Below, one piece after another: positions 30,048 through 57,450 of a stretch of DNA of 64,000 nucleotides (position 1 is the stretch's first letter; every line of letters starts with the position of its first letter). The notes beneath the pieces are model-generated. The model searched no databases. It was not told the DNA's origin and saw nothing but the letters and a program-made list of their open reading frames with translations. The stretch is from Nitrospira sp. GTDB taxonomy: Bacteria; Nitrospirota; Nitrospiria; Nitrospirales; Nitrospiraceae. The translations under genes were made by a program, and so were the position numbers. The stretch spans positions 1 to 64,000 of the forward strand of contig JACOEK010000008.1 of assembly GCA_024998595.1 (NCBI GenBank), in the 5' to 3' direction.

Positions 30048-30114
30048 GAAGTCAGGACAACGACGTCCTGACTTCTCGTAGCCACCACATAGGCAGAGGA
30101 CAATGACGTCCTTT
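30048..30114 (+). promoter_or_regulatory. ANTAR-type antiterminator RNA, leader 1 (porin/urt)
   Basis: Hairpin P1 has an 11-bp perfect stem (30048-30058 with 30065-30075) closed by hexaloop AACGAC. Hairpin P2 has stem AGGAC/GTCCT (30097-30101 with 30108-30112) and hexaloop AATGAC. Both loops have A1 and G4, the ANTAR recognition pattern. The linker contains CACCACATA. P2 shares its loop end and 3' strand with the terminator that follows, so the two folds exclude each other. Confidence 0.85.
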
Positions 30115-30150
30115 TGGTCCAACGGTTGGACCGGAAGGGCGTTTTTTTTT
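30106..30150 (+). terminator. Intrinsic terminator in the porin/urt leader
   Basis: A continuous 17-bp stem with some G-U pairs (30106-30122 with 30126-30142) and a three-base loop, followed by T residues through 30150. It includes the 3' half of hairpin P2, as expected for an attenuator released by ANTAR binding. Confidence 0.88.
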
Positions 30151-30211
30151 GCCTGCGAGCCCATCCGGTCTGGTGACAGTCACATCGTTCCGAACCAGGA
30201 GGGCTACCAGG

Positions 30212-38838: not shown

Positions 38839-40566
38839 ATGAAAATTCCTAGACGCCAATACAACGACCTCTACGGCCCCACGACGGGGGATCGGATTCG
38901 CCTGGCCGACACAGACCTGCTGGTAGAGATCACGCGCGATCTGACCGTGCCTGGCGAGGAAGCCAAGTTCGGCGGCGGGAAGGTGATTCGAGACGGCATG
39001 GGGCAGTCGCCGGCGGCGACGCGCGCCAAAGGGGGCCTGGACCTCGTCATTACGAATGCGATCGTTATCGACTGGTGGGGCGTGGTGAAGGCCGACATCG
39101 GGATTAGGGACGGCCGCATTGTCGGTATCGGCAAGGCGGGGAATTCCGACCTCATGGACGGCGTTACGAAAGGTATGGAGATCGGACCCTGTACCGAAGT
39201 CCTCTCGGCGGAGGGGAAGATCGTGACCGCCGGCGGGATCGACACGCATATCCATTTCATCTGTCCGCAAATCATTACCGAAGCGCTGGCGAATGGGTTG
39301 ACGACGTTGATCGGCGGCGGCACGGGCCCGGCGACCGGTACAAATGCGACGACCTGCACGCCTGGACCATGGAACATCCATCGCATGCTGGAGGCGGCGG
39401 ATGGGTTCCCGATCAATTTGGGGTTCCTGGGCAAGGGGAACTCGTCCTTGCCGGAGGGTTTGAACGAGCAGGTCGAAGCGGGAGCCATCGGGTTGAAGTT
39501 GCATGAAGACTGGGGAACGACGCCGGCCGCTATCGATACCTGTCTGAGTGTTGCGGAGCGGTATGACATTCAGGTGGCGATCCACACGGACACCATCAAT
39601 GAAGCGGGCTTTGTCGAGGACACGATCAAGGCCTTCAGGGGCCGGACGATCCATTCATTCCACACCGAAGGCGCCGGCGGCGGCCATGCGCCGGACATTA
39701 TCAAGGTCTGCGGCGAGCCGAACGTGCTGCCTTCCTCGACGAATCCCACGATGCCGTTTACCGTGAATACGATGGACGAGCATCTCGATATGCTCATGGT
39801 GTGCCACCATCTGAACCCGCGCGTGCCGGAAGACATTGCCTTTGCCGAGTCGCGTATCCGCCGTGAGACGATTGCGGCCGAAGATATTCTCCATGACATG
39901 GGCGCGATCAGCATCATGTCGTCTGATTCGCAGGCGATGGGGCGCGTGGGGGAAGTCATCATCCGGACCTGGCAGACCGCCCATAAAATGAAGGTGCAGC
40001 GGGGGCATCTGTCCGAGCGTGGAATTGAGGCGGCAGACGGGCTACACGACAACTGGCGTGCGCGACGGTACGTGGCAAAGTATACGATCAACCCGGCGAT
40101 TGCCCATGGGATCGCTCATGAAGTGGGGTCGATCGAAGTGGGCAAACTGGCGGACCTCGTCTTGTGGAAACCGGCGTTCTTCGGCGTGAAACCCGAGATC
40201 GTGTTGAAGGGCGGTTTTCCCATGTCGGCGGCGATGGGCGATCCTAATGCGTCGATCCCGACGCCGCAGCCGGTGCTGACGCGGCCGATGTTCGGCAGTT
40301 TCGGTCGGGCGCCCTTCCAGACGAGCCTGACGTTTCTGTCGCAGAAGGCGTTGGAGCGTGAGGTGCCGAAGCAGTTGGGGTTGCAGAAGCGGGTGGCCGC
40401 GGTCAAAGGCTGCCGGAACATCGGCAAGCGTGATCTTAAGCTGAACGACGCGCTGCCGCAGATCGAAGTCGATTCGGAAACGTACGAAGTGCGCGCGGAT
40501 GGTCTCTTGTTGAGATGCGAGCCGGTCGATGTGTTGCCGATGGCGCAGCGTTACTTCCTCTTCTAG
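38839..40566 (+). CDS. ureC: Urease alpha subunit (catalytic)
   Basis: UreC (575 residues) holds the di-nickel centre. The residues expected from Klebsiella urease with an offset of three are present: H137, H139, carbamylated K220, H249, H275, catalytic-flap H323 next to C322, and D363. The start [20 protein letters not shown] is standard. No Shine-Dalgarno sequence is visible before ATG 38839 because the repeat abuts the gene. Confidence 0.98.
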
Positions 40567-44142: not shown

Positions 44143-44205
44143 CCAGGGACAACGGAGTCTCAGGAGGCTCTCCTTTATAGAGATGGCGTAGGACAACGAC
44201 GTCCT
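44143..44205 (+). promoter_or_regulatory. ANTAR-type antiterminator RNA, leader 2 (nadE)
   Basis: P1: GGGAC/GTCTC stem (44146-44150 with 44157-44161), extended by CC/GG after one mismatch, hexaloop AACGGA. P2: AGGAC/GTCCT stem (44190-44194 with 44201-44205), hexaloop AACGAC. Both loops have A1 and G4. The 3' strand of P2 is also the 5' end of the following terminator. Confidence 0.8.
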
Positions 44206-44241
44206 CTGATCCACCGAGGTGGGTCCGAGGACTTTTTTTTT
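44201..44241 (+). terminator. Intrinsic terminator in the nadE leader
   Basis: Stem 44201-44214 with 44219-44232 (six pairs, one mismatch, seven pairs; tetraloop CGAG), followed by nine T (44233-44241). It uses the 3' strand of hairpin P2, so the two compete. Confidence 0.87.
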
Positions 44242-44248
44242 ATCAACG

Positions 44249-46200: not shown

Positions 46201-46243
46201 GACCGACAACGACGTCGGTCAGCAACACTGGCAATGGCGCCAG
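46201..46243 (+). promoter_or_regulatory. ANTAR-type antiterminator RNA, leader 3 (between nadE and OMP)
   Basis: P1: perfect GACCGAC/GTCGGTC stem (46201-46207 with 46214-46220), hexaloop AACGAC. P2: perfect CTGGC/GCCAG stem (46228-46232 with 46239-46243), hexaloop AATGGC. Both loops have A1 and G4. It begins 15 bases after the nadE stop and no promoter was found before it, so it probably acts inside the operon. Only an imperfect competing hairpin follows. Confidence 0.78.
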
Positions 46244-46292
46244 AGAGACGGAACTTCCGGATCGTCGGGCACGACGGTCTCGGAGCGGGCCA
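46235..46292 (+). terminator. Possible weak terminator behind leader 3
   Basis: TGGC and CC at 46235-46241 can pair with GGGCCA at 46287-46292, and GAGAC at 46245-46249 with GTCTC at 46277-46281, across internal loops and an inner CGTCG/CGACG hairpin (46263-46276). It would disrupt P2. It is followed by a pyrimidine-rich stretch, not a T run, so termination is uncertain. Confidence 0.35.
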
Positions 46293-51715: not shown

Positions 51716-53125
51716 ATGAACGTTCGTGAGGTGTTAGATTTTGCAAAGAAGAATAAGGTCCAGGTTGTGGACATGAAGTTCGTCGACCTGATCGGCACCT
51801 GGCAGCATTTTACGATTCCTGTCAGTGAGCTGACCGAGGGCCTGTTCAAGGATGGCTCCGGGTTGGATGGGTCCTCGATTCGAGGGTGGAGGGCGATCAA
51901 CAACAGCGACATGCTGCTCGTGCCGGACCCGACAACCGCTTGTATGGATCCCTTTTGCTCCGTGCCCACACTGAGCCTGATCGGGAATGTGGTCGATCCG
52001 ATCACGCGCGAAATGTATGATCGCGATCCGCGGTTCATCGCCCAGAAGGCGGAAAAATATCTCCAGAGCACCAAGATCGGCGATACCTCGTACTGGGGGC
52101 CGGAAGCCGAGTTCTTTATTTTCGACCATGCCCGTTACGATCAGACGAACCACAGCGCCTACTACCACATCGATTCCGACGAAGGCGTGTGGAACATGGG
52201 CCAGGAAGGCGTCAACTTGGGCGGGAAGATCCGCCACAAGGAAGGCTATTTCCCGGTTCCACCAACGGATACGCAGCAGGACATCCGCACGGAAATGATT
52301 TTGGAAATGGAAAAGGCCGGCATCGCGACCGAGAAGCACCACCACGAAGTGGCGACGGCGGGCCAGGCGGAAATCGACATTCGCTTCGACAGTCTGCTGC
52401 GCACTGCCGACAAGATGATGATGTTCAAGTACATCGTCAAGAACGTGGCACGGCGGCACGGCAAGACGGTGACCTTCATGCCGAAGCCAATTTTTGGCGA
52501 CAATGGATCGGGCATGCACACCCACCAGAGCATCTGGAAGGACGGCAAGCCGCTGTTTGCCGGGAAGGAATATGCAGGCGTCTCACAGATGTGTCTGCAC
52601 TATATCGGCGGCATTCTGAAGCATGCGCCCGCGCTGGCAGCCTTCACCAACCCGTCGACCAACTCCTACAAGCGGTTGACGCCGGGATTTGAAGCGCCGG
52701 TGTTGCTGGCCTATTCGAGCCGCAACCGGTCGGCCGGTATTCGTATTCCCATGTACTCCCCGAGCCCGAAGGCGAAGCGGATCGAAGTGCGGTTCCCGGA
52801 CCCCGCCGCCAACCCCTACCTGGCCTTTGCTGCGATGTTGATGGCCGGTCTGGACGGCATCGAGAATAAGATCAATCCTGGAGAGCCGGCTGAAAAGGAT
52901 CTCTACGATCTCGAAGCCAAGGAAGCCGCGAAGATCCGGACCATGCCGGGCAGCCTCGATGAGGCACTCAACCACCTGGAGAAGGACCATCAGTTCCTCC
53001 TCAAGGGCGGGGTGTTCAGTGAGGACCTCATCGAGGCCTGGATCGGGTACAAGCGGACCAAGGAAGTCGATACCATGCGGTTGCGGCCGCATCCGTACGA
53101 GTTTTTCCTGTATTACGACGTGTAG
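51716..53125 (+). CDS. glnA: Glutamine synthetase, type I
   Basis: Makes glutamine from glutamate, ammonia and ATP. 469 residues with DGSSIRGW at 51-58, metal-binding EAEF at 130-133, [20 protein letters not shown] near 255-274 and the adenylylation tyrosine Y397 in [12 protein letters not shown]. That tyrosine and the nearby glnE genes show GSI-beta type regulation. AAAGGAGGAGG precedes the ATG. Confidence 0.98.
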
Positions 53126-53150
53126 CCTGCGGCCTCCTCGTCAAGGGAGC

Positions 53151-53179
53151 TTGACGAATCCGAGAGGCGATGGTATACA
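53151..53179 (+). promoter_or_regulatory. Sigma-70 promoter of the nitrite-channel leader
   Basis: TTGACG at 53151-53156, 17-base spacer, TATACA at 53174-53179 with TGG before the -10 box (extended -10 type). It lies 26 bases after the glnA stop. A start near 53186 is about twelve bases before hairpin P1. Confidence 0.72.
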
Positions 53180-53197
53180 TGCAGTGCGTGGGTGAAA

Positions 53198-53259
53198 TCA
53201 GGCAACGACGCCTGAAGTCGACCTCGCACCACATACAGTACACGGACAATGGCGTCCGT
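53198..53259 (+). promoter_or_regulatory. ANTAR-type antiterminator RNA, leader 4 (first of tandem)
   Basis: P1: TCAGGC/GCCTGA (53198-53203 with 53210-53215), hexaloop AACGAC. P2: ACGGAC/GTCCGT (53242-53247 with 53254-53259), hexaloop AATGGC. Both have A1 and G4. The linker contains CACCACATA, as in leader 1. P2 overlaps the terminator at 53251-53289. Confidence 0.85.
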
Positions 53260-53289
53260 CATTCTTCCAAGAGTGGCGGACGCCTTTTT
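53251..53289 (+). terminator. Intrinsic terminator of leader 4
   Basis: A continuous stem of about 15 pairs (53251-53265 with 53270-53284, two G-U), tetraloop TCCA, followed by five T. It contains the second half of the P2 loop and its 3' strand, so P2 and the terminator exclude each other. Confidence 0.87.
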
Positions 53290-53295
53290 CATTTC

Positions 53296-53367
53296 TGCCG
53301 ACGTTGAAGTCGGCACACTATACATAGACGAGGAATAACACCCTCGCTGAACCGGACAAAGACGTCC
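53296..53367 (+). promoter_or_regulatory. ANTAR-type antiterminator RNA, leader 5 (second of tandem)
   Basis: P1: TGCCGAC/GTCGGCA (53296-53302 with 53309-53315), hexaloop GTTGAA, which has G4 but G instead of A at position 1. P2: GGAC/GTCC (53354-53357 with 53364-53367), hexaloop AAAGAC, with A1 and G4. It follows leader 4 with no gene between, giving two attenuators in series before the nitrite channel. Confidence 0.7.
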
Positions 53368-53402
53368 TCCTCCCCGTTGCGGGATGAGGGCGTCTTTTTT
53401 TT
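53361..53402 (+). terminator. Intrinsic terminator of leader 5
   Basis: Stem 53361-53374 with 53381-53394 (nine pairs, one mismatch, four pairs; six-base loop), followed by eight T (53395-53402). It takes up the P2 loop end and 3' strand. It ends 28 bases before the downstream start codon. Confidence 0.87.
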
Positions 53403-53430
53403 GCTGGCGGATCACCAAAAGGAGAGTCTC

Positions 53431-54261
53431 ATGCACACAGCGGATCATGAGCGGATCGCGGGGGTAGCGGCAAAGAAGTGGGCGTTTTTGGAACAAGCGC
53501 CCGGCGGGTATTTCATCCTGTCGGCCTTGGCAGGGATTTATCTCGGGTTCGGCATTGCGTTGATCTTCAGCCTCGGGGGCCCGTTGGCAGCAGCCGGATC
53601 TCCGGTGGTCAAACTGGTCATGGGCGTGTCGTTCGGTATCGCGTTGACGCTTGTGATTTTTGCCGGATCCGAGCTGTTCACCGGCAACAACCTGATCGGT
53701 GCCATCGGCGGTCTGTCGCGAAGCCTGTCCTGGACGCAAGTCATTCAGCTCAATGCCTGGTCCTGGTTCGGAAATTTAGCCGGATCGATGGGGCTGGCCT
53801 GGTTGATCGTCGAATCAGGTGTGTTTGCGAAGGGGCCGTCGGCAGACCTGATCGAAAAGGTGGCGGCAGTGAAAATGTCTCTCCCGGCCTGGGAGCTGTT
53901 CGTACGGGGGATTCTTTGCAATTGGCTGATTTGCCTGGCCGTGTGGATGACCGGGCGGACGACAAATGATACCGCGAAGATCCTGCTGATTTTCTGGTGC
54001 CTGTTTGCCTTCATCGGCACGGGGTTCGAGCATAGCATCGCGAATCAATCGTTGTTGGGCATGGCGTTGTTCTTGCCCCATGAAACAGCCGTGACCTGGG
54101 CGGCCTTTTGGTACAACCAGCTCTTTGTCGTGCTGGGGAACCTGGTTGGGGGCGGGCTGTTTGTCGGCGGGCTGTACTGGATGGTGAGTCCCTATCGTGT
54201 GGCCGAAGTCCCGGTGGCTTCGGTCTCGCGTCCGGCCACATCGGCGGTGGTCGGGTCGTAA
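53431..54261 (+). CDS. nirC: Formate/nitrite transporter family channel (nitrite)
   Basis: An FNT-family channel (276 residues) with six membrane helices. FAGSELFTGNNLIGAIGG and the TGFEHSIANQSLLGMALF segment are family signatures of the pore. With nirA and cynS downstream, nitrite is the likely substrate. ATG 53431 is behind AAAAGGAGAG; earlier in-frame starts fall inside the terminator of leader 5 and are rejected. Confidence 0.9.
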   Translation: MHTADHERIAGVAAKKWAFLEQAPGGYFILSALAGIYLGFGIALIFSLGGPLAAAGSPVVKLVMGVSFGIALTLVIFAGSELFTGNNLIGAIGGLSRSLSWTQVIQLNAWSWFGNLAGSMGLAWLIVESGVFAKGPSADLIEKVAAVKMSLPAWELFVRGILCNWLICLAVWMTGRTTNDTAKILLIFWCLFAFIGTGFEHSIANQSLLGMALFLPHETAVTWAAFWYNQLFVVLGNLVGGGLFVGGLYWMVSPYRVAEVPVASVSRPATSAVVGS

Positions 54262-54312
54262 GTCAGAGTGGCGAGCGCATCTTTGCAGGCGGATCAATCA
54301 CAGGAGGAGACG

Positions 54313-54753
54313 ATGGAGAAGGAAGCAATGCGAAAGGCGATCAAGGCGCAACGGTTGAAGAAGAAGGTCACGATTGCCGAGGTGGCCAAAAAGGTGGGCA
54401 AGAATCCGACGTTCGTGGCGGCAGCTCTAAACGGCAATCACCGCCTGGTTCCGGCTGATGCGGCGAAGGTCGGAGTGCTGCTGGGCCTGAATAAAGAGCA
54501 GGTCGCTGCCTTGAGCGCATTTCCGGTCCGTGCAGATTTCCCGAATCTGACTGATCCGTTCAAATATCGGCTGATGGAGGTGATCGGGGTGTACGGTGAC
54601 TCAATGCGGGAGATGGCGAATGAAATGTTTGGTGACGGGATCATGAGCGCCATCGATTTTACCCTAGATATGGAAAAAGTCACCGGCAGTCAGGGAGAAG
54701 CTCGCTGCAAAATCACCCTGAACGGCAAGTGGCTCGAGTACAAGACGTTTTAG
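54313..54753 (+). CDS. cynS: Cyanate hydratase (cyanase)
   Basis: Converts cyanate and bicarbonate to ammonia and CO2 (via carbamate). The catalytic residues R86, E89 and S112 keep the spacing of R96, E99 and S122 in the E. coli enzyme (KYRLMEVIGVYGD and FGDGIMSAIDF). The N-terminal helical domain is HTH-like. 146 residues from ATG 54313 behind CAGGAGGAG; upstream in-frame codons have no family counterpart. Confidence 0.97.
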   Translation: MEKEAMRKAIKAQRLKKKVTIAEVAKKVGKNPTFVAAALNGNHRLVPADAAKVGVLLGLNKEQVAALSAFPVRADFPNLTDPFKYRLMEVIGVYGDSMREMANEMFGDGIMSAIDFTLDMEKVTGSQGEARCKITLNGKWLEYKTF

Positions 54754-54805: not shown

Positions 54806-55003
54806 ATGAAGACGAATGAAGAAACCGCAGTGCTGACGCTTCTCAGGCGGCAGGCGCCCCAGTCATTCGAGCAATTGATGGCCCTCTCCGGTCTGAGCGC
54901 CTCGCAGGTGCTGCTGGTGGTAGATCGATTGAGTCGTGAGGGCTCAGTAGTGTTGAGAAAATCGGGCCTGGACTATTCCGTCGCACTGGGGAGCACGATA
55001 TGA
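54806..55003 (+). CDS. Mini winged-helix protein before nirA
   Basis: A 65-residue protein that looks like an isolated winged helix: VLTLLRRQAPQSFEQLMALS, then GLSASQVLLVVDRLSREGSV and a short wing. It resembles the core of MarR-like regulators but has no dimerisation helices. It overlaps nirA by four bases (ATGA), so the two are probably translated together. It could be a regulator or a partner of NirA. Start ATG 54806 behind AAGGGAGG. Confidence 0.72.
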   Translation: MKTNEETAVLTLLRRQAPQSFEQLMALSGLSASQVLLVVDRLSREGSVVLRKSGLDYSVALGSTI

Positions 55004-56607
55004 ACAAAATTGAGGCCATCAAAGCAGAGCGTGACGGATTAACGGTGCGCGAGATGCTTGGGCATTATGCGCAAGCGGGGTGGGAGTCCATTCCTGAAGA
55101 CGATATTCAACGGCTGAAATGGTACGGGCTGTTCTTGCGGAATCCCACGCCGGGATTCTTCATGTTGCGGGTGCGCATGCCGGGCGGCCAAACCACCTCG
55201 GCTCAGCTGCGAGCGCTGGCGGATATCGCCCTCGCCTACGGCAACGGAGTTATCGATGTGACCACGCGGCAACAAGTGCAACTGCGCCATCTGACGATTG
55301 CTCATGTGCCGGCGGTCTTCGCCAAGCTGGAGGAGGCCGGGCTCACGTCGATGCAAACCGGCATGGACAGCGTGCGCAACGTGATGACCTGTCCGGTCGC
55401 GGGCTTGAATCCCAACGAATTGCTGGATGGAACGGAGATTGTTCGCGCTATTAACAGGGAAGTGCTGGGCAACCCGGCTTATACGAATTTGCCGCGCAAG
55501 TGCAATATCGCAGTGACCGGCTGTACGGACAATTGTCTGCATACGGAGACGCAAGATATTGCGCTGGTGCCCGCCTACCATGATTTGGGGCACGACAAAT
55601 GTTTTGGCTACAACGTGTTGGTCGGGGGCAAGCTGGGCTCCGGCGGATATCGCGTGGCGAGTTCGTTGGATATGTTCGTGAATCCGGCAGAGGCGTTCGA
55701 GGTCTGCCGGACCCTGTTGCACATCTACCGCGATCATGGCCCCCGCGAGAATCGCACCCAAGCACGGTTCGCATTTTTGGTTGAAGCCTGGGGCGAGGCC
55801 CGGCTGAGGCACGAGGTGGAAGTGCGCATGGGCCGCGCCTTACCGTCTGCGGGCGTGGATGCCAGGGCGGCGGGCGAGCGCGATCACATCGGCATTTTCC
55901 GGCAAAAGCAACGCGGCTTGAACTACATCGGCCTCAAAGTATTGGTGGGGCGGATCAAGGCCGCTGATCTCCGCAACATCGCAGCACTGGCAGAGCGGTA
56001 CGGGACGGGCGAGGTACGGCTCTCGCCCGCGCAAGCCTTCGTGATCCCGCACATCAGTGATCGTGTGGTGGGGGAACTGGCGGAGGAGCCGCTCGTGAAG
56101 CAATTTGCCTATAACCCGTCACCACTCTACAAGGGGCTGGTCAGCTGTGTGGGCAGCGACTATTGCAACCTGGCCGTCATTGAAACCAAAAGCCGGGCCG
56201 TGGAGACGGCCCGGGTGCTGGAGCGTAAATTGGGCGAGGGGCTGAAGCCGATCACGTTACATTGGTCCGGTTGCCCTGCCGGTTGCGGCAATCATCTGGT
56301 GGCGGATATCGGGCTTCTCGGCAAGAAAGCGCGCGTCGGCGGCAAAGTGGTCGATGCTGTCGATATCTTTGTAGGCGGTCGTTCCGGGCCTGATCCGAAG
56401 TTGGCGACCAAGATCATGGAGGATGTGCCTTGCGACAAGCTCCCTGCGGTCCTGGAGAACCTCATGCCTTACCATACGCGGGAGAAAATGCATCGCGTGC
56501 GGGGAAAGGCCGCGCCGAAACCGACAGGCTCGGGAAAGCCGGCGCCTTCGGGCAATGAAGCGACTGGAGCCATATCCAGTCTCACGCCTCAACCGTTTCC
56601 GGCCTAG
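55000..56607 (+). CDS. nirA: Ferredoxin-dependent assimilatory nitrite reductase
   Basis: Reduces nitrite to ammonium with six electrons at a sirohaem-4Fe4S centre. The cluster ligands C383-x5-C389 and C425-x3-C429 are in SCVGSDYCNLAV and HWSGCPAGCGNH. N-terminal DVTTRQQVQLRHL matches the sirohaem-side domain. 535 residues with a Pro- and Ser-rich tail. With the nitrite channel it forms the nitrite-assimilation arm of the cluster. Confidence 0.94.
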   Translation: MNKIEAIKAERDGLTVREMLGHYAQAGWESIPEDDIQRLKWYGLFLRNPTPGFFMLRVRMPGGQTTSAQLRALADIALAYGNGVIDVTTRQQVQLRHLTIAHVPAVFAKLEEAGLTSMQTGMDSVRNVMTCPVAGLNPNELLDGTEIVRAINREVLGNPAYTNLPRKCNIAVTGCTDNCLHTETQDIALVPAYHDLGHDKCFGYNVLVGGKLGSGGYRVASSLDMFVNPAEAFEVCRTLLHIYRDHGPRENRTQARFAFLVEAWGEARLRHEVEVRMGRALPSAGVDARAAGERDHIGIFRQKQRGLNYIGLKVLVGRIKAADLRNIAALAERYGTGEVRLSPAQAFVIPHISDRVVGELAEEPLVKQFAYNPSPLYKGLVSCVGSDYCNLAVIETKSRAVETARVLERKLGEGLKPITLHWSGCPAGCGNHLVADIGLLGKKARVGGKVVDAVDIFVGGRSGPDPKLATKIMEDVPCDKLPAVLENLMPYHTREKMHRVRGKAAPKPTGSGKPAPSGNEATGAISSLTPQPFPA

Positions 56608-56670
56608 ACTATGAGACTTGAGCCGATACCGGAGTTGGGTTATTCTCTTGGGCTCAACAAGGGAGGCAGC

Positions 56671-57450
56671 ATGGCCAAGAGAGTGAAATCGAGTCAGGAA
56701 CCGGCCGATCTACTCAGCCGGCACATAGAAGGAATCCGGGAGACGCTGGTGGCATTCCAACCGTTTTTGTCTCGACGGAAAGGAAACGCATCGTTGGACG
56801 CGTTTGACGAGCAGGCTGAAGAGGTACTCAGCGAAACCTTCGGCGGAGCGTCCGAGGAGCTTGAAGCCTATCATTACGCCAAGCTCGGTGAAGCGGCCAT
56901 TCTTCCGGAGGAAGCGCAGGAGGCAGGAACGCACAATCTCGATCGTGAGAGCCTGCATCAACGCAAGCAGGTCTTGGAGAGTTGTCTCGCGCAGCTGGAG
57001 CTGAAAAAGAGCGCCAGGGTCGGGCGGGATTGGCGTCGGACGCTTGGTGAGCGGATCGATGGCCGCACCGTGGCCGAGTTTATGTCGTCCGAGGTCCGCA
57101 GCGTGCACAAGGGCGCATCGATCAAAGAGGCCGGTCGGTTATTGCAGAAGTGGCGTATCGGGTCACTGCTCGTCGACGACGGGTCCCGCTATCTCGGCAT
57201 CATCACGGATACGGATCTGAGCCGGAAGGCCGTAGCCAAAGGGTTGGATCCGAACAGCACCACCGTGATGTCATGCATGAGCAAGGCGGTGGTGACTATC
57301 GAGGACAGTGAGCCGATTAAGGAAGCCTTACGGGTGATGAAAAAAGAAGGCATCCGGCACCTGCCGGTCACAGAAGACGGCACCATCATCGGCGTGTTGT
57401 CGGTGGGAGATTTGCTGCGCGCCTACCAGAAGATGCTCGAATTATTATAA
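56671..57450 (+). CDS. CBS-domain protein
   Basis: A 259-residue cytoplasmic protein. Residues 1-125 are a charged helical region that I do not recognise (TraR/DksA-like context cannot be confirmed: no zinc-finger cysteines). Two CBS domains follow: about 133-185 (VAEFMSSEVRSVHKGASIKE, SLLVDDGSRYLGIITDTDLS) and 198-255 (MSCMSKAVVTIEDSEPIKEA, RHLPVTEDGTIIGVLSVGDL). CBS pairs bind adenosine nucleotides. ATG 56671 has GGGAGG upstream; an earlier in-frame start at 56611 is less likely. Located 63 bases after nirA. Confidence 0.8.
   Translation: MAKRVKSSQEPADLLSRHIEGIRETLVAFQPFLSRRKGNASLDAFDEQAEEVLSETFGGASEELEAYHYAKLGEAAILPEEAQEAGTHNLDRESLHQRKQVLESCLAQLELKKSARVGRDWRRTLGERIDGRTVAEFMSSEVRSVHKGASIKEAGRLLQKWRIGSLLVDDGSRYLGIITDTDLSRKAVAKGLDPNSTTVMSCMSKAVVTIEDSEPIKEALRVMKKEGIRHLPVTEDGTIIGVLSVGDLLRAYQKMLELL

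Follow-up and report, generated by a model that had tools for sequence, protein, structure and literature searches.

The 64,000-nt stretch of Nitrospira DNA analysed here (the window) is a nitrogen-acquisition island, which holds genes for a urea transporter and urease, nadE, amt-glnB-glnD-glnA and nirC-cynS-nirA. A first-pass annotation had placed two ANTAR attenuators, leaders 4 and 5, in series in front of the nitrite channel gene nirC. This raises two questions: are both of them targets of an ANTAR antiterminator, and why should a single operon carry two? We consider it likely (a probability of about 0.8) that positions 53151-53430 form a leader in which two transcription attenuators, each under ANTAR control, follow one another. 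The genes on either side of this leader are as follows:

51716..53125, + strand: glnA, type I glutamine synthetase, directly 5' of the leaders (TIGR00653, E 1.1e-205)
53431..54261, + strand: nirC, formate/nitrite family channel, first gene 3' of the leaders (PF01226, E 7.6e-65)
54268..54753, + strand: cynS, cyanase, second gene 3' of the leaders (TIGR00673, above cut-off)
55000..56607, + strand: nirA, ferredoxin-nitrite reductase family (NF007125, E 6.6e-167, slightly below the curated cut-off)

The close relatives found with nirC belong to Nitrospira and include Candidatus Nitrospira defluvii (FP929003.1), in which the tandem of leaders is present as well. For genomes with nirA, published synteny maps of this cluster show nirC 5' of the cyanate gene (PMC6311188); the passages concerned deal with which genes are present and not with control by RNA. 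Close 3' of nirA (56611-57450) is a gene for a CBS-domain protein of unknown function, which may be a member of the operon. An Rfam scan of the window gave no ANTAR-type match. Its single match was 5_ureB_sRNA (80.8 bits, 38989-39280, minus strand), antisense within the urease alpha gene, and this may merely mirror the protein-coding conservation of that gene.

Anatomy of the leader

The gap that separates the glnA stop (53125) from the nirC start (53431) holds both attenuators, with no gene between them, in agreement with the first-pass annotation. The loops of leader 4 (AACGAC, AATGGC) with its 15-bp terminator and T5, and those of leader 5 (GTTGAA, AAAGAC) with its terminator and T8, were all recovered where that annotation had put them. 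To these we add a hairpin, M, at 53329-53346 and a helix that extends P1 at its base (53184-53188 pairing with 53225-53229). The features of the leader, with those of leader 5 marked by a prime, except M and T2, are listed below:

53151..53179, + strand: probable promoter, TTGACG-N17-TATACA, with a TG one base 5' of the -10 (read from the sequence)
53184..53229, + strand: basal helix enclosing P1 of leader 4 (minimum free energy fold)
53198..53215, + strand: leader 4 P1, hexaloop AACGAC (hexaloop hairpin search)
53242..53259, + strand: leader 4 P2, hexaloop AATGGC (hexaloop hairpin search)
53251..53289, + strand: terminator T1, a 15-bp hairpin (53251-53284) and T5, overlapping P2 (terminator scan; -26.6 kcal/mol)
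53296..53315, + strand: leader 5 P1', hexaloop GTTGAA, with G1 and G4 (hexaloop hairpin search)
53329..53346, + strand: leader 5 extra hairpin M between P1' and P2', here with loop AATAACAC (folding)
53354..53367, + strand: leader 5 P2', hexaloop AAAGAC (hexaloop hairpin search)
53358..53402, + strand: terminator T2 with a T8 ending at 53402, overlapping P2' (core 53361-53394, -22.3 kcal/mol)

The promoter 5' of leader 4 is kept in the same-genus leaders, and a single transcript bearing both attenuators is the simplest reading. A consensus promoter scan did not list it, as its -10 ends in A. An inverted repeat, TCGTCAAG-GGAG-CTTGACGA (53138-53157), spans the -35 box; it is partly conserved and could be an operator. 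A second promoter within leader 5, suggested by a TATACAT at 53319, was considered and rejected: the motif is unconserved in other species and the promoter scan lists none there.

The best studied ANTAR targets provide a yardstick. By binding to a dual hexaloop, EutV prevents terminator formation, an effect that depends on both loops and on the distance between them (PMC3369931, PMC8934654). The fourth loop base, G4, is the sole base specifically contacted in the EutV structure (PMC8934654), and a change of the first, A1, lowered induction and binding, though A1 is uncontacted in the crystal structure (PMC3369931, PMC8934654). The eut linkers measure 5-12 nt, and one of 14 nt already failed (PMC3369931). 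In leader 4, both hairpins carry hexaloops with A1 and G4, and P2 (53242-53259) shares an arm with the intrinsic terminator T1 (53251-53284). The P1-P2 linker of 26 nt is longer than those of eut, and part of it is occupied by the P1 basal helix, which is also predicted by RNAalifold (23 species). Leader 5 likewise has two hexaloop hairpins with G4 in each, and an arm common to P2' (53354-53367) and T2 (53358-53397). However, P1' mostly begins with G; because A1 is not present in both loops, we call leader 5 ANTAR-like and not a canonical member. Its P1'-P2' linker of 38 nt is far beyond the eut range. Since the search of Ramesh and colleagues allowed a variable linker (PMC3369931), the short linker is a feature of the eut set and not of all ANTAR targets. 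R1, a model of canonical elements, matched leader 4, itself part of its training set, at 64.6 bits over 53198-53259, and only the P2' half of leader 5, at 13.1 bits.

In both leaders the 5' arm of the terminator starts in the P2 loop and takes in the P2 3' arm, so that the P2 and terminator folds are mutually exclusive. T1 (-26.6 kcal/mol) and T2 (-22.3 kcal/mol) are far more stable than P2 (-8.1) and P2' (-4.0), and termination is therefore expected as the default. Against 200 dinucleotide shuffles, the folding z was -6.5 for leader 4 and -5.5 for leader 5, no shuffle (0/200) folding as well. The succession of two A..G.. hexaloop hairpins and a T run occurs three times on the same strand of the window, compared with 0 or 1 in each of 20 Markov resamples. 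On the whole alignment, RNAalifold predicted P1 with its basal helix, T1, P1' and T2; P2 and P2' are invariant in the same genus and hence show no covariation. The T1 U tract is broken in several species, and that of T2 is the better of the two in the window's genus. The T1 stretch GTCCGTCATTC (53251-53284) is identical across genera, more so than pairing requires.

A tandem behind glnA

Among same-genus genomes with a close nirC, the tandem lies between glnA and nirC in 23 of 24; in the remaining genome (G017) it is again 3' of glnA but 5' of an nrtA-like gene. Taken over nine genera, 57 of the 60 glnA-adjacent leaders inspected are tandems directly 3' of glnA, species counts not being independent events, and the other three (G074, G083 and G089) are single units. 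Together with the anatomy and the folding scores, these counts bear out the proposal of two ANTAR-type attenuators in series. Its wording, "before the nitrite channel", fits the present locus, where nirC follows, but is too narrow: the next gene may be nirC, cynS (G004, G013, G034) or an nrtA-like ABC gene. Where the order is nrtA-cynS-nirC, an additional single unit sits in the cynS-nirC gap. We thus rejected a tie of the tandem to nirC; on sequence comparison, the tandem goes with the glnA junction and not with the nitrite channel alone.

In the loci inspected, the elements found ahead of urt, nadE and other genes stand singly. Those of the window are:

30048..30151, + strand: single ANTAR attenuator before the urea-transport unit (R1, 53.4 bits)
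44145..44242, + strand: single ANTAR attenuator before nadE (R1, 45.9 bits)
46202..46244, + strand: dual hexaloop element before DUF6733-amt-glnB-glnD-glnA (R1, 37.8 bits; no intrinsic terminator seen)

These three elements also belong to the R1 training set. When R1 was run on the genome to which the window belongs, leader 4, urt and nadE gave the only significant matches, all within the window, and the amt leader was matched only when the window was searched directly. In that genome scan 150 of the 1519 first-look candidates received a score, and the amt element was passed over; further elements are therefore possible. The amt element has both canonical loops, 25 nt apart, and may work differently, through translation or Rho. 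The glutamine-dependent NAD synthase gene nadE, preceded by a canonical attenuator, is an unexpected member of a nitrogen regulon; an ANTAR element also precedes nadE in L095, L139 and L142. In three genus-g10 loci (L052, L061 and L063), about 160 bp of similar extra sequence, resembling a repeated mobile piece, lies between the second terminator and nirC.

Because the elements away from glnA are single, we read the doubling as a means of keeping the operon silent. Its likeliest purpose is to protect an operon that needs silence from promoter output and from glnA read-through, and we infer that it guards against either glnA read-through or strong promoter output. Alternatively, the doubling could serve glnA: T1 would be the glnA terminator, standing near the next leader, and leader 5 would be the attenuator proper of the operon, the ANTAR features of T1 allowing glnA read-through to be released. 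The tandem is indeed always directly 3' of glnA, whatever gene follows, with single units elsewhere, and a terminator scan from glnA to T1 found no good terminator, the only hit being a weak 5-bp match inside glnA. However, the promoter between glnA and leader 4 is conserved and leader 4 therefore governs the operon's own transcripts too; moreover, the more canonical of the two elements is that of leader 4. We rate this alternative as rather improbable. It overlaps with the silencing of the operon, which we prefer, and differs from it in which transcript matters most.

Leader 5, the ANTAR protein and a proposed mechanism

The conservation of the loops was followed in a nirC-linked set of 35 species, made up of the same-genus tandems and 12 from other genera, in which P1' was chosen for each species on stem strength alone (cut-off of 3 pairs), blind to the loop bases. 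Both hairpins of leader 4 have A1, A2 and G4 in 35/35 species, and the P2 stem is kept too. In leader 5, the P2' loop reads AANGRC in 35/35, and a P1' hairpin with G4 was found in 34/35, the exception (L042) having A at position 4. The first base of the P1' loop is G in 27 species, T in 5 and A in 3, and the P1' stem pairs covary between genera (AT/TA, GC/TA, CG/GT/AT, GC/CG). The G at the start of the second P1 loop, pointed out in the first pass, is real and no quirk of one species; a G-first P1' loop is a conserved trait of leader 5. The asymmetry is reversed in L138 (G048), with a G-first P2' loop (GACGGC) and ACTGAA in P1'.

Hairpin M is present in nearly all species by per-species folding and is a G4 hexaloop in some other genera. 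On a MAFFT alignment 57.9% of its cells are paired; the loop lengths slide, and covariation is uninformative. Forty of 43 species have a G4 hexaloop hairpin 5' of P2', where resampling of the spacers would predict 5.9. Under a tighter stem cut-off, in a set of 57 species, 50 had such a hairpin: the distal one only in 33, the proximal one only in 7 and both in 10. Most genus-g2 genomes and G002 carry it on the proximal hairpin only. The proximal loops lie 22-28 nt, mostly 24-25 nt, 5' of the P2' loop; by residue numbers (A29, A53), the E. faecalis eutP loops are 24 nt apart (PMC3369931). From these comparisons, the hairpin serving as P1 seems to have switched between lineages.

These patterns bear on the possibility that leader 4 alone answers to the ANTAR protein, leader 5 being a second terminator with a poorly binding P1' and acting mainly as a fixed leak-limiter. 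The G1 loop, the 38-nt linker, the detection of P2' only by the canonical model and the better U tract of T2 in the window's genus would all fit. However, a plain terminator needs neither the kept loops of P2' and P1' nor covarying stems, and in genus g2 and G002, which lack a G4 hexaloop at P1', the proximal hairpin provides one. Moreover, a strong permanent terminator would shut the operon for good. A leader 5 deaf to the ANTAR protein is, in our view, unlikely.

The proposed regulator is encoded in the same island as the leaders and is the sole ANTAR protein found in its genome:

27719..28978, + strand: GAF-GAF-ANTAR protein (PF03861, E 9.5e-19)

Its ANTAR domain aligns with those of Rv1626, EutV and NasR and carries RNA-contact residues of EutV (taken from PMC8934654): five of eight are identical (R142, K143, K149, E160 and M172), and K147, Y164 and R168 are replaced by R, F and Q, respectively. 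The tyrosine of EutV that stacks on G4 is a phenylalanine here. With one ANTAR protein found, the same regulator would serve both sites and the "AND-like" response put forward earlier finds no support; multiplicative repression or a raised threshold is expected, not two-input logic. Among 147 genomes of the family, 93 have both an ANTAR gene and the RNA element, 40 have neither, 6 have only the ANTAR gene and 8 only the RNA element (Fisher P ~1e-21, relatedness being ignored). Both states occur within genus g6, where gene and element agree except in G097 and G137. ANTAR binding being a prediction, the eight genomes with the element alone would suit a different binder of these hairpins, another RNA-binding protein or a metabolite. 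Six of the eight are only 72-89% complete, however, the presence of gene and element matches across genomes, including within g6, and the loops obey the ANTAR rule, with G4 throughout and A1 in leader 4, which makes a different binder very improbable. Equally slight is the chance that the palindrome of P1' acts as a DNA operator or belongs to a second promoter within the leader: its arm pair stands beside TATACAT in the window, but that motif is lost in other species, with none listed there by the promoter scan, whereas the hairpin is kept, and G4 persists while the stems covary, as fits an RNA hairpin.

We thus propose the following model for the serial pair. Transcripts would start at the promoter just 3' of glnA, probably joined by glnA read-through. 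When active ANTAR protein is absent, RNA polymerase would halt at T1 (about 53289), and escapees would halt at T2 (about 53402). The active GAF-GAF-ANTAR protein would grip P2 (with P1) and next P2' (with P1' or, in certain genera, M); both terminators would be kept from forming, and nirC-cynS-nirA would be expressed, alongside the urt and nadE units that bear the same element. The releasing signal is probably nitrogen shortage. By the precedent of EutV, we infer both the binding of the leader by this protein and termination in vivo. Without the protein, the leak through the pair would be roughly that through T1 multiplied by that through T2, and expression would require two successive bindings; tight repression and a steep response, as predicted for a serial pair, are therefore plausible. 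G1 in P1' may weaken the leader 5 site, because changing A1 in EutV targets lowered induction and binding. A more tentative extension, possible but less likely than not to hold in full, is that leader 5 represents a second class of ANTAR target, in which the distal loop begins with G, a helper hairpin is present and affinity is lower. The strong-then-weak pair would then set a threshold needing high levels of active ANTAR protein, and would have arisen to insulate the operon from glnA transcription.

Relation to known systems

If the model is true, one RNA-binding protein runs a nitrogen regulon in nitrite-oxidising Nitrospira. Natural G1 loops with a strict G4 bear on how loop position 1 matters, and the family-wide spacings and loops offer a test panel for an ANTAR dimer reading two hairpins. 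The serial pair also lends itself, as a natural example, to measuring the combined effect of two attenuators under one regulator.

ANTAR attenuators on nitrogen genes, including those for nitrite transporters and nitrite reductase, were already predicted in 2012. The covariance search concerned placed the same motif 5' of genes for PII, for nitrite reductase and for transporters of ammonium, urea and nitrite, and in Desulfotomaculum acetoxidans it predicted at least 13 ANTAR elements on six units (PMC3369931). The main text of that report contains no Nitrospira and is silent on elements in series. Among the open-access papers searched, none mentions "Nitrospira" and "ANTAR domain" together; within that set, the apparent novelty is that two attenuators with unequal loops directly follow each other, conserved 3' of glnA, and that such a pair occurs in Nitrospira.

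The EutV-controlled eut leaders of Enterococcus faecalis share with the present ones the two G4 hexaloop hairpins, the overlap of P2 with the terminator and the ANTAR protein (PMC3369931, PMC8934654), and in both systems a gene cluster has several attenuators. Those of eut, however, are spread over eutP, eutG, eutS and eutA, whereas the two of Nitrospira stand back to back. In eut, all loops begin with A and the linkers measure 5-12 nt; in Nitrospira the linkers are longer, and leader 5 has G1 and an extra hairpin. The eut regulator is a response regulator, in contrast to the GAF-GAF-ANTAR protein of Nitrospira. The NasR-nasF leader of Klebsiella oxytoca resembles our case in the ANTAR antitermination of nitrate/nitrite assimilation genes (PMC3369931, PMC7496416), but has one leader and a regulator with a NIT sensor domain instead of two GAF domains. 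Finally, more than one decision per leader is also made in the tandem attenuators and riboswitches described for mgtCBR (PMC3641672) and PRPP-guanine (PMC5912903). In the accounts of those tandems, the sensors are RNA aptamers or leader peptides, often answering to two signals, whereas in Nitrospira one protein is expected to act on both elements.
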